The position numbers and the translations under genes were made by a program. Below, in pieces: positions 11,557-15,088 of a stretch of 64,000 nt of DNA. Source of the DNA: Mycobacterium sp. UM_WGJ (lineage in GTDB: Bacteria > Actinomycetota > Actinomycetes > Mycobacteriales > Mycobacteriaceae); NCBI RefSeq assembly GCF_000455125.1, contig NZ_AUWR01000008.1, positions 310,001 through 374,000 of the forward strand. Direction: 5' to 3'. The first letter of the stretch is position 1, and each line of letters opens with the position of its first letter. A model generated the notes under the pieces. The model was not told where the DNA came from and did no database searches. It worked only from the letters and a program-made list of their open reading frames with translations.

Positions 11557-11727
11557 CCGCCTTCCGATCGGCTACCTGTCCGCGGTGGCCCGACGCCGAG
11601 TGCCACCGCCCCCGAGCCGTTCCGATCCGCTCCCCCGGCTCGACCGCCGTAGCAGCGAGCACCAGATGAGTTTTGCTCACGCTGATCACAACTTTGCGCC
11701 GGTAAGGAAGATTTTCGGCATCCATGG

Positions 11728-11733
11728 CATAAT
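11728..11733 (+). promoter_or_regulatory. -10 element of a leaderless promoter for the cysteine leader
   Basis: CATAAT lies seven bases before the GTG at 11741. In mycobacteria transcription usually starts six to eight bases after the -10, so the transcript would begin on the G of the start codon, giving a leaderless mRNA. Confidence 0.6.
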
Positions 11734-11740
11734 CGGCGCT

Positions 11741-11836
11741 GTGACCGCCGCCTACTGCACCTCGTCCGGGGTTGCCTTGGTGGCTCGGCGGCATATCGAT
11801 TTCAAGCGTGTCTGCAGCTGTCGCTGTCTGCCTTGA
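11741..11836 (+). CDS. Cysteine-rich leader peptide of the nirA operon
   Basis: A 31-codon reading frame starting with GTG and ending in KRVCSCRCLP. It has three cysteine codons in five near the end, plus one near the start. Leaderless polycysteine leader peptides that attenuate sulfur-assimilation operons when charged tRNA-Cys is low are known in M. smegmatis; this one sits in the right place, about 110 bp before nirA. When cysteine is plentiful the ribosome would finish the leader and the nirA ribosome site would stay folded. When cysteine is scarce, stalling at the Cys codons would open it. Start, codon content and context fit; the regulation is inferred. Confidence 0.72.
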   Translation: MTAAYCTSSGVALVARRHIDFKRVCSCRCLP

Positions 11837-11928
11837 TGTCGTAGAACCGCCCACCTGTATTTTCCAGCTGGCCGCCGGATCTGCGTCGCCGGTGACAGTC
11901 GCCGGTGAACCGCGCTCAATCCCGCCGG

Positions 11929-11944
11929 CTCCTCTTTGAAGGAG
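11929..11944 (+). promoter_or_regulatory. Hairpin sequestering the nirA ribosome-binding site
   Basis: CTCCT at 11929-11933 can pair with AGGAG at 11940-11944, which is the Shine-Dalgarno of nirA six bases before its ATG. Just upstream, an 11-bp direct repeat GTCGCCGGTGA occurs at 11885-11895 and 11898-11908, giving alternative pairing partners. This suits translational attenuation by the upstream leader. Confidence 0.5.
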
Positions 11945-11949
11945 AATCC

Positions 11950-13629
11950 ATGACCGCCACTCCGACTGCTCCCCCGAGCAGGGCAAAGCGCAGCGAAGCC
12001 CAATGGGCGCTCGGCGAGACCGAACCGGTCAACCACAACGAGCAGTTCAAGCAGGAAGACCCGGCGCTGAACGTGCAGGCCCGGATCGTCGATGTGTACT
12101 CCAAGCAGGGGTTCGACTCGATCGCCAAGGACGACCTGCGCGGCCGCTTCCGCTGGATGGGCCTCTACACCCAGCGCGAGCAGGGCTACGACGGCACCTT
12201 CACCGGCGACGAGAACGCCGACCTGCTGGAGGCCAAGTACTTCATGATGCGGGTGCGCTGCGACGGCAAGGCGCTATCGGCCGCCGCGATGCGGACACTG
12301 GGACAGATCTCGGTCGACTACGCCCGCAACACCGCCGACATCTCCGACCGCAACAACCTGCAATATCACTGGATCGAGATCGAGAAGGTCCCAGAGATCT
12401 GGGACCAGCTCGACGCGGTCGGGCTGCAGACCATCGAGGCCTGCGGCGACTGCCCGCGTGGCCTGCTCGGGTCTCCGCTGGCCGGTGAATCGCTCGACGA
12501 GGTGCTCGACCCGTCCCCCGCACTCGACGAGATCGTCCGCCGATACATCGGCAACCCGGAATTCGCCAACCTGCCACGCAAGTTCAAGACCGCCGTCTCC
12601 GGTCTGCCGGACGTCGCCCATGAGATCAACGACATCTCCTTCATCGGCGTCAACCACCCCGAGCACGGCCCCGGCCTGGACCTGTGGGTCGGCGGTGGCC
12701 TGTCCACGAACCCGATGCTGGCTCAGCGCCTGGGCGCCTGGGTGCCGCTGGATGAGGTGCCCGATGTCTGGGAGGCCGTCACGAGCCTGTTCCGCGACTA
12801 CGGCTACCGCCGGCTGCGGTCCAAGGCCCGGCTGAAGTTCCTGGTCAAGGACTGGGGAGTCGAGAAGTTCCGCGAAGTTCTCGAGACCGAGTACCTCAAG
12901 CGCCCGCTGATCGACGGGCCGGCACCCGAGCAGCACACCGCGACCGTCGACCACGTCGGGGTGCAGAAGACCCGCAACGGCCACAACGCGGTCGGGGTGG
13001 CCCCGATCTCGGGCCGGGTGAACGGTGCCACGCTGCTCAAGGTGGCGGAATTGATGGAGCAGGTCGGTTCCGACCGGGCCCGGTTCACGCCGTACCAGAA
13101 GCTGGTCATCCTCGACGTTCCCGACGACAAGGTCGACGGCCTGGTGGCGGAGCTGGACGCGCTGGGCCTGCCGGCCAATCCGTCGCCGTGGCGACGCAAC
13201 CTGATGGCCTGCACAGGACTGGAGTTCTGCAAGCTGTCGTTCGTCGAGACCCGGGTGCGGGCCCAGAGCCTGGTCCCCGAACTCGAGCAACGCCTCGACG
13301 ACCTCAACGCCGTCCTGGACGTGCCGGTCACGGTCAACATCAACGGCTGCCCGAACTCGTGCGCCCGCATCCAGGTCGCCGACATCGGGTTCAAGGGCCA
13401 GATGATCGACGACGGCAACGGCAATTCGGTCCCCGGCTTCCAGGTGCACCTCGGCGGCAGCCTGGGCGCCGACAGCGGGTTCGGCCGCAAGCTGCGTCAG
13501 CACAAGGTCTACAGCGACGAACTCGGCGACTACATCGAACGGGTGGTGCGCAACTTCATCAAACAACGCAGCGCCGGTGAGCGTTTCGCGCAGTGGGCGG
13601 TGCGCGCCGAAGAAGACGATCTGCGATGA
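11950..13629 (+). CDS. nirA: NirA (SirA) ferredoxin-dependent sulfite reductase
   Basis: A 559-residue siroheme/4Fe-4S enzyme that reduces sulfite to sulfide. Cys421 and Cys427 (CTGLEFCKL) and Cys467 and Cys471 (NGCPNSCAR) are the cluster/siroheme ligands. The length matches NirA (about 555). I chose ATG 11950 because GAAGGAG precedes it; an in-frame GTG 45 bases upstream lacks a ribosome site. It is first of the plus-strand sulfur operon; cysH overlaps its stop by four bases. Likely controlled by the cysteine leader at 11741. Confidence 0.94.
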   Translation: MTATPTAPPSRAKRSEAQWALGETEPVNHNEQFKQEDPALNVQARIVDVYSKQGFDSIAKDDLRGRFRWMGLYTQREQGYDGTFTGDENADLLEAKYFMMRVRCDGKALSAAAMRTLGQISVDYARNTADISDRNNLQYHWIEIEKVPEIWDQLDAVGLQTIEACGDCPRGLLGSPLAGESLDEVLDPSPALDEIVRRYIGNPEFANLPRKFKTAVSGLPDVAHEINDISFIGVNHPEHGPGLDLWVGGGLSTNPMLAQRLGAWVPLDEVPDVWEAVTSLFRDYGYRRLRSKARLKFLVKDWGVEKFREVLETEYLKRPLIDGPAPEQHTATVDHVGVQKTRNGHNAVGVAPISGRVNGATLLKVAELMEQVGSDRARFTPYQKLVILDVPDDKVDGLVAELDALGLPANPSPWRRNLMACTGLEFCKLSFVETRVRAQSLVPELEQRLDDLNAVLDVPVTVNINGCPNSCARIQVADIGFKGQMIDDGNGNSVPGFQVHLGGSLGADSGFGRKLRQHKVYSDELGDYIERVVRNFIKQRSAGERFAQWAVRAEEDDLR

Positions 13630-14369
13630 GGCCGCACAGCGAAGCGGAGTTGCGCGAGCTGGCCGCCAAGGGCGCGGCCGAACTCGACGGCGCCAGCGCC
13701 ACCGAGCTGCTGGAGTGGACGGATGCGAATTTTGGCGGGGTGAACGGGCTCGACGCTTCGGGCCGACCCGCCTCCGCCAGCAACTACGTGGTGGCCTCCA
13801 ACATGGCCGACGCGGTGCTGGTGGATCTGGCGGCTAAGGTCCGCGCGGGGGTTCCGGTGCTGTTCCTCGACACCGGCTACCACTTCGCCGAGACCATCGG
13901 CACCCGCGACGCGGTGGAGTCGATGTACGACATCCAGTTGGTCAACGTCACCCCGGAGCAGACCGTCGCGGAGCAGGACGCGGCCCACGGTAAAGACCTG
14001 TTCGGGTCCAATCCGGCGCTGTGCTGCCGGTTGCGCAAGGTCGAGCCGCTGTCGCGTACCCTGCGCAACTACTCGGCGTGGGTCACCGGGCTGCGTCGGG
14101 TGGAAGCGCCAACGCGTGCCAACGCACCGCTGATCAGCTTCGACGAGCAGTTCGGGCTGGTGAAGGTCAACCCGATCGCGGCGTGGTCCGACGAGGAGTT
14201 CGACGCGTACATCGCCGCAAACAATGTGCTGGTCAACCCACTGATCGATGACGGTTACCCATCGATCGGCTGCGCGCCGTGCACGGTCAAGCCGGCGGCC
14301 GGAGCCGATCCGCGCAGCGGACGCTGGGCCGGCCTGGCCAAGACCGAATGCGGGCTCCACGCCTCGTGA
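13626..14369 (+). CDS. cysH: CysH adenylylsulfate (APS) reductase
   Basis: A 247-residue enzyme that reduces APS to sulfite with thioredoxin. The 4Fe-4S ligands typical of APS-type reductases are visible (CCRLRKVEPL and IGCAPCT), and the catalytic cysteine is in ECGLH at the C-terminus. Its product feeds NirA, whose gene overlaps by ATGA at 13626-13629. The next gene, for siroheme synthesis, overlaps its stop by GTGA. Confidence 0.94.
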   Translation: MRPHSEAELRELAAKGAAELDGASATELLEWTDANFGGVNGLDASGRPASASNYVVASNMADAVLVDLAAKVRAGVPVLFLDTGYHFAETIGTRDAVESMYDIQLVNVTPEQTVAEQDAAHGKDLFGSNPALCCRLRKVEPLSRTLRNYSAWVTGLRRVEAPTRANAPLISFDEQFGLVKVNPIAAWSDEEFDAYIAANNVLVNPLIDDGYPSIGCAPCTVKPAAGADPRSGRWAGLAKTECGLHAS

Positions 14370-15088
14370 CCACCACGCTGGTGCTGACCGCACACGGCAG
14401 CCGGGATCCGCGCGCGGCGGCCAACACTCGCGCGATCGCGGGGCACCTGCGCCGGGTGGCGCCCGAACTCGCCGTGCGCGTGGCGTTCTGCGAACACAGC
14501 TCCCCCAACCTGAGCGATGTGCTGCGCGAGACCAGCCACGCCGGCGGTGACACCATCGTCGCCCCCCTGCTGTTGGCCAGCGCCTACCACGCCCGCGTCG
14601 ATATTCCGGCGATGATCGCGGAGTCCGGCGTCGCCGTGCGGGTCGCTTCGACGCTGGGCGAGGACAGCCGCCTGGTGCAGGTTCTCGGCGAACGCCTGTC
14701 GAGCGCCGGGGCTTCGCGATTCGACCCGGAGCTGGGTGTGGTGGTGGTCGCGGTGGGCTCGTCGCGTCCGGTGGCCAACGCGCAGACCGCCACGATCGCA
14801 GCCCCGTTGTCTCGCGGAACGCGTTGGGCCGGAGTGGAAGTCGCCTTCGCCACTGAGGGCCCCCAGCCGTCGGTGCCGGAAGCCGTCGAACGGTTGCGGG
14901 CACGCGGTGCCACCAAGCTGATGATCGCTCCGTGGTTCTTGGCCAACGGCAGGATCACCGACCGGGTCGCCGCCTACGCCGCACAGGTGGGAATCCCGAT
15001 AGCCGAGCCGCTCGGCGCGCACCGCCTGGTGGCCGCGACCGTGCTGGACCGAGTGGAGGCCGCGCTGGCCACCGAGCTGGCTGCCTGA
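14366..15088 (+). CDS. Sirohydrochlorin ferrochelatase-like (CbiX/SirB, Rv2393-like)
   Basis: A 240-residue chelatase that inserts iron into sirohydrochlorin to make siroheme, the NirA cofactor. The first catalytic His is in LTAHGSRDPRA near the N-terminus. A second half-domain repeats the fold with VVVVAVGSSRPVAN and ends with PWFLANGRI. Two CbiX halves in one chain fit SirB/CbiX of this size. The GTG at 14366 overlaps the cysH stop. Convergent with cysA. Confidence 0.85.
   Translation: MTTTLVLTAHGSRDPRAAANTRAIAGHLRRVAPELAVRVAFCEHSSPNLSDVLRETSHAGGDTIVAPLLLASAYHARVDIPAMIAESGVAVRVASTLGEDSRLVQVLGERLSSAGASRFDPELGVVVVAVGSSRPVANAQTATIAAPLSRGTRWAGVEVAFATEGPQPSVPEAVERLRARGATKLMIAPWFLANGRITDRVAAYAAQVGIPIAEPLGAHRLVAATVLDRVEAALATELAA

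Follow-up and report, generated by a model that had tools for sequence, protein, structure and literature searches.

A cysteine-codon leader before nirA-cysH in Mycobacterium sp. UM_WGJ, a probable attenuator orthologous to the Ms4527A leader

What does a short cysteine-rich reading frame do directly in front of nirA and cysH? The question is raised by the window analysed here, a stretch of 64,000 nucleotides from Mycobacterium sp. UM_WGJ, in which a peptide recognised by the NF042936 profile "Ms4527A family Cys-rich leader peptide" (51.9 bits against a curated cut-off of 45) stands upstream of nirA, which is followed by cysH. The best segment of the window's NirA is 99% identical to that of Mycolicibacter heraklionensis strain 1211594.5 and 96% identical to three other Mycolicibacter records, which places the window in that genus or very close to it. 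Our reading, to which we give a probability of roughly 0.85, is cysteine-codon attenuation by the Mycolicibacter orthologue of the Ms4527A leader, whichever output is used. The leader and the genes behind it are laid out as follows:

11725..11733, + strand: extended -10 element TGG-CATAAT, its TGG conserved in close and distant loci
11728-11733, + strand: CATAAT -10 hexamer
11734-11740, + strand: 7-nt spacer between CATAAT and GTG
11741-11743, + strand: GTG start of the leader frame
11741..11836, + strand: predicted leaderless GTG leader frame with its stop, MTAAYCTSSGVALVARRHIDFKRVCSCRCLP (NF042936, 51.9 bits)
11777..11812, + strand: peptide core LVARRHIDFKRV, selected at the peptide level (pN/pS 0.12)
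11813..11827, + strand: Cys tract C-S-C-R-C (TGC AGC TGT CGC TGT), fifth codon TGT
11950..13629, + strand: nirA, sulfite/nitrite reductase family (Pfam NIR_SIR and NIR_SIR_ferr), ATG at 11950
13593..14369, + strand: cysH, APS/PAPS reductase (NCBIfam TIGR02055 and NF002537 above cut-off)
14279..15088, + strand: CbiX-type chelatase frame after cysH (Pfam CbiX)

A preliminary description of this DNA had claimed a 31-codon GTG frame ending in CSCRC-Leu-Pro and a CATAAT hexamer exactly seven bases before it, and the letters of the window bear out both in every detail. The 31 codons at 11741-11833 read VTAAYCTSSGVALVARRHIDFKRVCSCRCLP (V being the initiator, read as M) and end in CSCRCLP; the TGA stop occupies 11834-11836 and nirA begins 113 nt downstream. 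The spacing between hexamer and RTG is the one that a transcript beginning on the RTG would need. In the mechanism that we favour, the transcript would start on the GTG, leaderless start and translation having been shown by others for orthologues, and a ribosome would translate the 31 leader codons. When Cys-tRNA is short, it would slow on the C-terminal Cys codons, and the slowed ribosome would raise expression of nirA-cysH. The conserved parts of the leader are read directly from the sequence; we infer the cysteine response and a translational output, in which the ribosome site would be released, by analogy with the work on M. smegmatis.

Comparison of orthologous nirA upstream regions, which the preliminary description had proposed, covered the window and the best 80 related nirA loci among the matches listed (81 in total), with a script that accepted only 6-8 nt between hexamer and RTG. 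In 75 of these 81 loci a CANAAT-type hexamer (in one locus CAGACT) is followed by a Cys-rich frame that has its C-terminal Cys codons in frame. Nearly all close relatives examined thus keep frame and Cys codons, and the loss named beforehand as evidence against the leader was not observed. Among these 75 leaders from the matches listed, 63 start with GTG and 12 with ATG, the hexamer lies 7 nt (53), 6 nt (21) or 8 nt (1) from the RTG, and the distance to nirA is about 80-160 nt. The six loci without a parsed leader are L050, L062, L063, L068, L079 and L081. Of these, L079 has the frame with Gly replacing the first Cys, after CACACT, and counts against cysteine attenuation. The other five NirA copies resemble one another at 81-98% and the window's NirA at 76-78%; the leader-bearing copy L042 is 79-81% like them, and two of the five share a record with a leader-bearing nirA. 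Judged by identity and record they look like paralogues, and the absence of the leader from such copies speaks for cysteine attenuation. By eye, imperfect palindromes of the type TTGTG...CACAA are present upstream of these five genes and of two further nirA genes without a recognised leader (L199, L205). A contig titled as a Bifidobacterium breve MAG (L074) also bears a mycobacterial-type nirA locus with leader; this bin is probably mislabelled or contaminated.

At the level of genomes, the NF042936 profile (E up to 0.01) matched 286 of 297 sampled genomes of the genus, 247 above the cut-off, and 320 of 401 genomes of the family in 28 of 31 genera, 121 above the cut-off. The reported cysteine attenuator is thereby confirmed from sequence as nearly universal in the sampled genus and common in the family. 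The profile missed 11 genus genomes. Three of them (G025, G115, G212) yielded no nirA, G111 has the gene broken up at contig ends, and in G015, G127, G253 and G260 it follows a divergent Cys leader. In the other three, G083, G251 and G282, nirA is present and the scan recognised no leader, which counts against the main reading. The 3.3-Mb genome G075 matches both the leader profile and the RNA model described below, and its NirA covers only residues 17-309 at 51% identity with two internal stops. More distant leaders come from the peptide-profile search and were parsed through their RRH, a selection that favours the core; eight of the 40 distant regions were unparsed despite a profile match (L168, L171, L177, L185, L188, L189, L191, L195). 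Loci L082-L111 and L113-L157 lie outside the analysed set.

Which part of the leader would sense cysteine is suggested by its codons. At the fifth tract position, all 70 close (among the matches listed) and all 29 distant distinct leaders that have Cys there use TGT, and some leaders carry further Cys codons after it. In nirA itself, TGC makes up 93% (close) to 100% (distant) of Cys codons, the distant values coming from partial genes, and the fixation of UGU against so UGC-rich a gene argues for cysteine attenuation. Ser at the tract's second position is encoded by AGC in 52 of 52 close leaders (among the matches listed) and 28 of 31 distant ones, against an AGC use of 18-25% in nirA. In four genomes missed by the peptide profile the core is gone, whereas promoter, frame and Cys codons persist: L200-L202 end in RRCCCPALLP and L204 in RCSCCCLL. 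The survival of the Cys codons without the core points to them as the sensing part. L198 is a case on the other side: promoter and start are kept and the Cys codons are out of frame after ARR, by real change or assembly error.

The core ahead of the Cys tract is nevertheless under selection at the peptide level. Across 70 distinct close leaders (among the matches listed), which were not chosen by core, LVARRH(V/I)D(F/L)KRV hardly changes, while the base varies at many of its wobble positions. Over 101 distinct leaders, from a sample of 4000 of the 5050 pairs, pN/pS is 0.12 for the 12-residue core and 0.17 for the Cys tract, and it reaches 1.04 in the N-terminal part; restricted to the 70 close leaders (among the matches listed), the three values become 0.13, 0.15 and 1.22. 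With a pS of 0.51, synonymous change in the core is free. The leader could thus be partly an arrest peptide rather than a codon counter alone, the nascent RRH(V/I)D(F/L)KRV tuning or timing the stall from within the exit tunnel. We regard this as a tentative possibility. It would account for the contrast in pN/pS between core and N-terminal part, distant leaders retain the core though their intercistronic RNA aligns poorly, and the cysA2-type leader described below bears a related RR-x-x-D-L-x-R stretch. However, the four genomes above keep the Cys codons without the core, the distant set is biased towards the core by profile search and RRH parsing, and, with certain codons also fixed, the constraint may partly be one on the RNA.

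How a slowed ribosome would reach nirA is the next question, and the 113 nt between leader and gene contain two structures that bear on it:

11866..11930, + strand: conserved intercistronic hairpin, outer helix P1 11866-11872/11924-11930
11877-11881, + strand: 5' side of its helix P1b
11887-11892/11902-11907, + strand: its helix P2
11929..11944, + strand: local hairpin holding the nirA ribosome site, CTCCT 11929-11933 and AGGAG 11940-11944

The preliminary description had claimed that the ribosome site can be locked in the CTCCT/AGGAG hairpin. As a structure it exists in the minimum-energy fold of the whole leader (z -2.2), and its role as a switch could not be established. A fold of the intercistronic stretch by itself (z -1.4) is without this hairpin: there the ribosome site has UUUUCC, which lies upstream of CTCCT, as its partner. 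Among 55 relatives (from the matches listed) 77.6% of cells are paired, against 41-51% in slid controls, with no covariation, and several relatives, L054 (M. asiaticum) and L065 (M. sherrisii) among them, are without the CTCC side. In 41 of 56 close loci (among the matches listed) the Shine-Dalgarno sequence (SD) is somewhat less accessible than in shuffles (mean 0.30 vs 0.39); in the window (0.31 vs 0.30) and the distant group (0.34 vs 0.30) it is not.

Masking by a ribosome was also inconsistent. Placing a ribosome on the first or the last Cys codon changed mean SD accessibility by 0.003 and 0.016 over the 75 close leaders (among the matches listed) and by -0.025 and 0.022 over 32 distant leaders. 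In the window's free leader the R-R-H codons pair with the nirA start (mean pairing 0.54). Start-codon accessibility is 0.20 there and climbs to 0.86 and 0.95 for the two ribosome positions once the RNA behind the ribosome is excluded, which speaks for cysteine attenuation. The values are only 0.28 and 0.03 if that RNA may pair, and the vanishing of this gain counts against it. Over the 75 leaders (among the matches listed) the change in start accessibility was 0.03 to 0.11 with upstream RNA removed and 0.06 and -0.03 with it kept; in the former case shifts larger than 0.1 went up in 22 and 32 leaders and down in 19 and 11. Given the lack of a consistent SD or start change, a translational switch is possible and unsupported as a family feature by equilibrium folding. 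Two specific pairings were considered and are not claimed. Between the R-R-H codons and the nirA start, strongly paired in the window, mean pairing is only 0.10 over the 75 close loci (among the matches listed), too little for a feature of the family. A trp-like 1-2-3-4 arrangement, in which a frame segment (CGGCGGC or CAGCUG) pairs with the 5' arm of the intercistronic hairpin, is not claimed because L200-L202 are without the core that holds CGGCGGC and because ribosome masking gave no consistent effect.

The larger intercistronic hairpin, absent from the preliminary description, is the better conserved of the two structures. By alignment, the stretch after the leader frame is conserved in mycobacteria; 56 of the 75 close regions (among the matches listed) were non-redundant and 55 were aligned, L071 (Rhodococcus) being left out. 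In these 55 sequences, likewise from the matches listed, 91.0% of cells are paired in the nested hairpin (P1, P1b, P1c, P2) against 23-43% in slid controls, a value favoured by the choice of the structure on the same alignment. Covariation is weak: five pairs change on both sides, as 9 of 500 shuffles also reach, with 3-7 in slid controls, and the covariation score is 0.099 against 0.016-0.055. A covariance model of the element (R1) gave one strong match in its own genome (98.3 bits; the next, 21.6), as expected since the window is in the model, and matched 95 of 98 genus genomes, a set that overlaps in part with the genomes behind the model. Outside the model set, it found the right place in six of nine nirA loci (L198-L206) at E 1e-6 or better. 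In genome G060 a second, weaker match was seen on contig 1 at 4038813-4038928 (E 9.4e-7). Only L159 and L186 of the 40 distant regions reached E 0.001, so the element as modelled is mycobacterial. Searches of 4227 Rfam families gave no match at gathering threshold, with one chance-level match on the other strand in 11560-11980 (E 2.4). A hairpin of at least five pairs around a CAGC loop is present in 19 of the 32 distant loci that were parsed and in 48 of 75 close loci (among the matches listed), where mononucleotide shuffles predict 2.5 and 5.3; the window's copy is without it.

The conserved hairpin between leader frame and nirA would also suit an output by premature transcription termination through Rho within the 113-nt stretch. 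This is compatible with cysteine attenuation and concerns only its last step; we think it unlikely. Seliverstov et al. (2005) suggested Rho for mycobacterial cys leaders in what, in the accessible part of that paper, is called a weak prediction, and the folding above shows no consistent release of SD or start by a stalled ribosome. Against it, no U-run follows the hairpin in the window, and papers citing Canestrari et al. (2020) describe the M. smegmatis system as translational attenuation.

A function of the peptide in trans, for example as a small metal- or thiol-binding protein, is very improbable: selection at the peptide level would fit it, but the frame sits about 80-160 nt before nirA in close loci (among the matches listed), its N-terminal part is unselected and its core is dispensable in some lineages. 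Finally, we scanned both strands of the 64 kb for a -10-like hexamer, 6-8 nt, an RTG and a frame of 12-60 codons. The window holds five such frames, below the shuffle mean of 14.7, and one of the five has at least three Cys within its last ten codons. Since 5 of 100 dinucleotide shuffles contain at least one such Cys-rich frame somewhere, the window sequence alone is only mildly improbable, and the frame is judged real because of its position directly before nirA and its conservation. A chance reading frame, for which those shuffles speak, is already refuted by retention in 75 of 81 nirA loci (among the matches listed) and matches in 28 of 31 genera, and is practically negligible.

TGG precedes the hexamer in 75 of 75 close loci (among the matches listed), forming an extended -10, and in all 32 parsed distant loci, for which the promoter-choosing script favoured TGG. 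Of 200 upstream columns in the 75 loci (among the matches listed), all those above 0.8 bits fall within -59 to -1 of the hexamer, with the consensus TTTTgCTCACcgTGAgC. About 46 nt upstream of the extended -10 lies a further feature missing from the preliminary description:

11673..11691, + strand: conserved dyad TTGCTCACGCTGATCACAA, candidate operator upstream of the leader promoter, single exact match in the genome

Besides this exact match, 19 others were found genome-wide, all at three mismatches; a reversed control pattern gave 9. In distant loci a different dyad, of the type ATTTCCC-N10-GGGAAAT, takes its place: counted by eye, a TTTCCC half-site stands at the same position in 21 of 32 parsed loci, and in five such genomes the nirA site is the best or only match to this pattern within one mismatch. 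L175, L193 and L194 carry TTTGCCTCA...GCAAA there. A literature search by the letters of the dyad returned no mycobacterial paper by title among the matches listed. Together, these parts might form a sensor of three layers, in which a regulator binds the promoter dyad, RRHVDFKRV aids a stall on UGU and the genus-wide RNA element relays the stall to nirA. This is a speculative and rather doubtful combination; if it is true, its novelty would lie in the peptide part and the RNA element.

The nirA leader is also not the only one of its kind in this genome:

18992..19090, - strand: second leaderless Cys leader in the window, MFAATGDRQRQFLAFPKLAVITSAVADLHCCR, before subI; TATGCT 7 nt upstream, ATG, ending ...LHCCR
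L112:843-932, - strand: leader VFARLELVLTKRRAVDLCRTAGCCCCRCR before a cysA2-like operon in the same genome; TAGGCT, 7 nt, GTG
L228:1012-1092: leaderless Cys leader MSRSARFLTAVCLVAHGACCRACSCA before a ROK-family regulator in the same genome; TAGATT, 7 nt

The first, like the dyad, is missing from the preliminary description; subI belongs to a sulfate transporter operon, and the leader matches NF042937 (Ms4533A) with 32.0 bits, just above the cut-off of 31. The L112 leader scores 36.3 bits with NF042934 (cut-off 27), its operon being named by eye from translations. The occurrence of similar leaders before subI, the cysA2-like operon and the ROK regulator within one genome argues for cysteine attenuation. 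Rv0485 is, we take it, a ROK-type regulator as well. A small ORF upstream of Rv0485 is listed in the accessible part of Shell et al. (2015).

A Cys leader of this type before nirA is already known, both in kind and as an orthologue. As far as the accessible parts of these works go, Seliverstov et al. (2005) predicted Cys leaders before mycobacterial cys operons. Shell et al. (2015) described for M. smegmatis and M. tuberculosis a leaderless uORF that precedes nirA/Msmeg_4527 (their Fig. 7C legend), with leaderless transcripts for the nirA-leader orthologues of both species and conserved amino acids, and suggested cysteine attenuation; according to citing papers, Canestrari et al. (2020) found that leaderless frames with Cys codons act as translational attenuators in M. 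smegmatis. The preliminary description was therefore right to recognise the M. smegmatis architecture, the window's leader being the orthologue of the reported one (NF042936; Shell et al. 2015). It shares with the Ms4527A leader and the M. tuberculosis nirA uORF the place before nirA, the leaderless RTG, the peptide family and the Cys tract, and would differ in sequence detail only, the published peptide letters standing outside this comparison. The Ms4533A (NF042937, subI) and cysA2-type (NF042934) leaders likewise are leaderless, carry C-terminal Cys codons and precede a sulfur operon, and differ from the nirA leader in peptide and operon. With the polycysteine leaderless attenuators of Canestrari et al. 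(2020), to judge from the citing papers, the leader shares the architecture and the expected cysteine response, whereas an RNA switch at nirA was not reproduced by equilibrium folding. In the literature searched we met no core selection test, UGU fixation, intercistronic hairpin or dyad, some of which Canestrari et al. (2020) could contain. The leaders of Seliverstov et al. (2005), again by the accessible part, precede cys operons as short frames whose Cys runs lie close to the stop; no conserved hairpins able to act as terminators are reported there. To the known leader the present comparison adds the extended -10 with its dyad, selection on the core, UGU fixation, the intercistronic hairpin and the second Cys leader.
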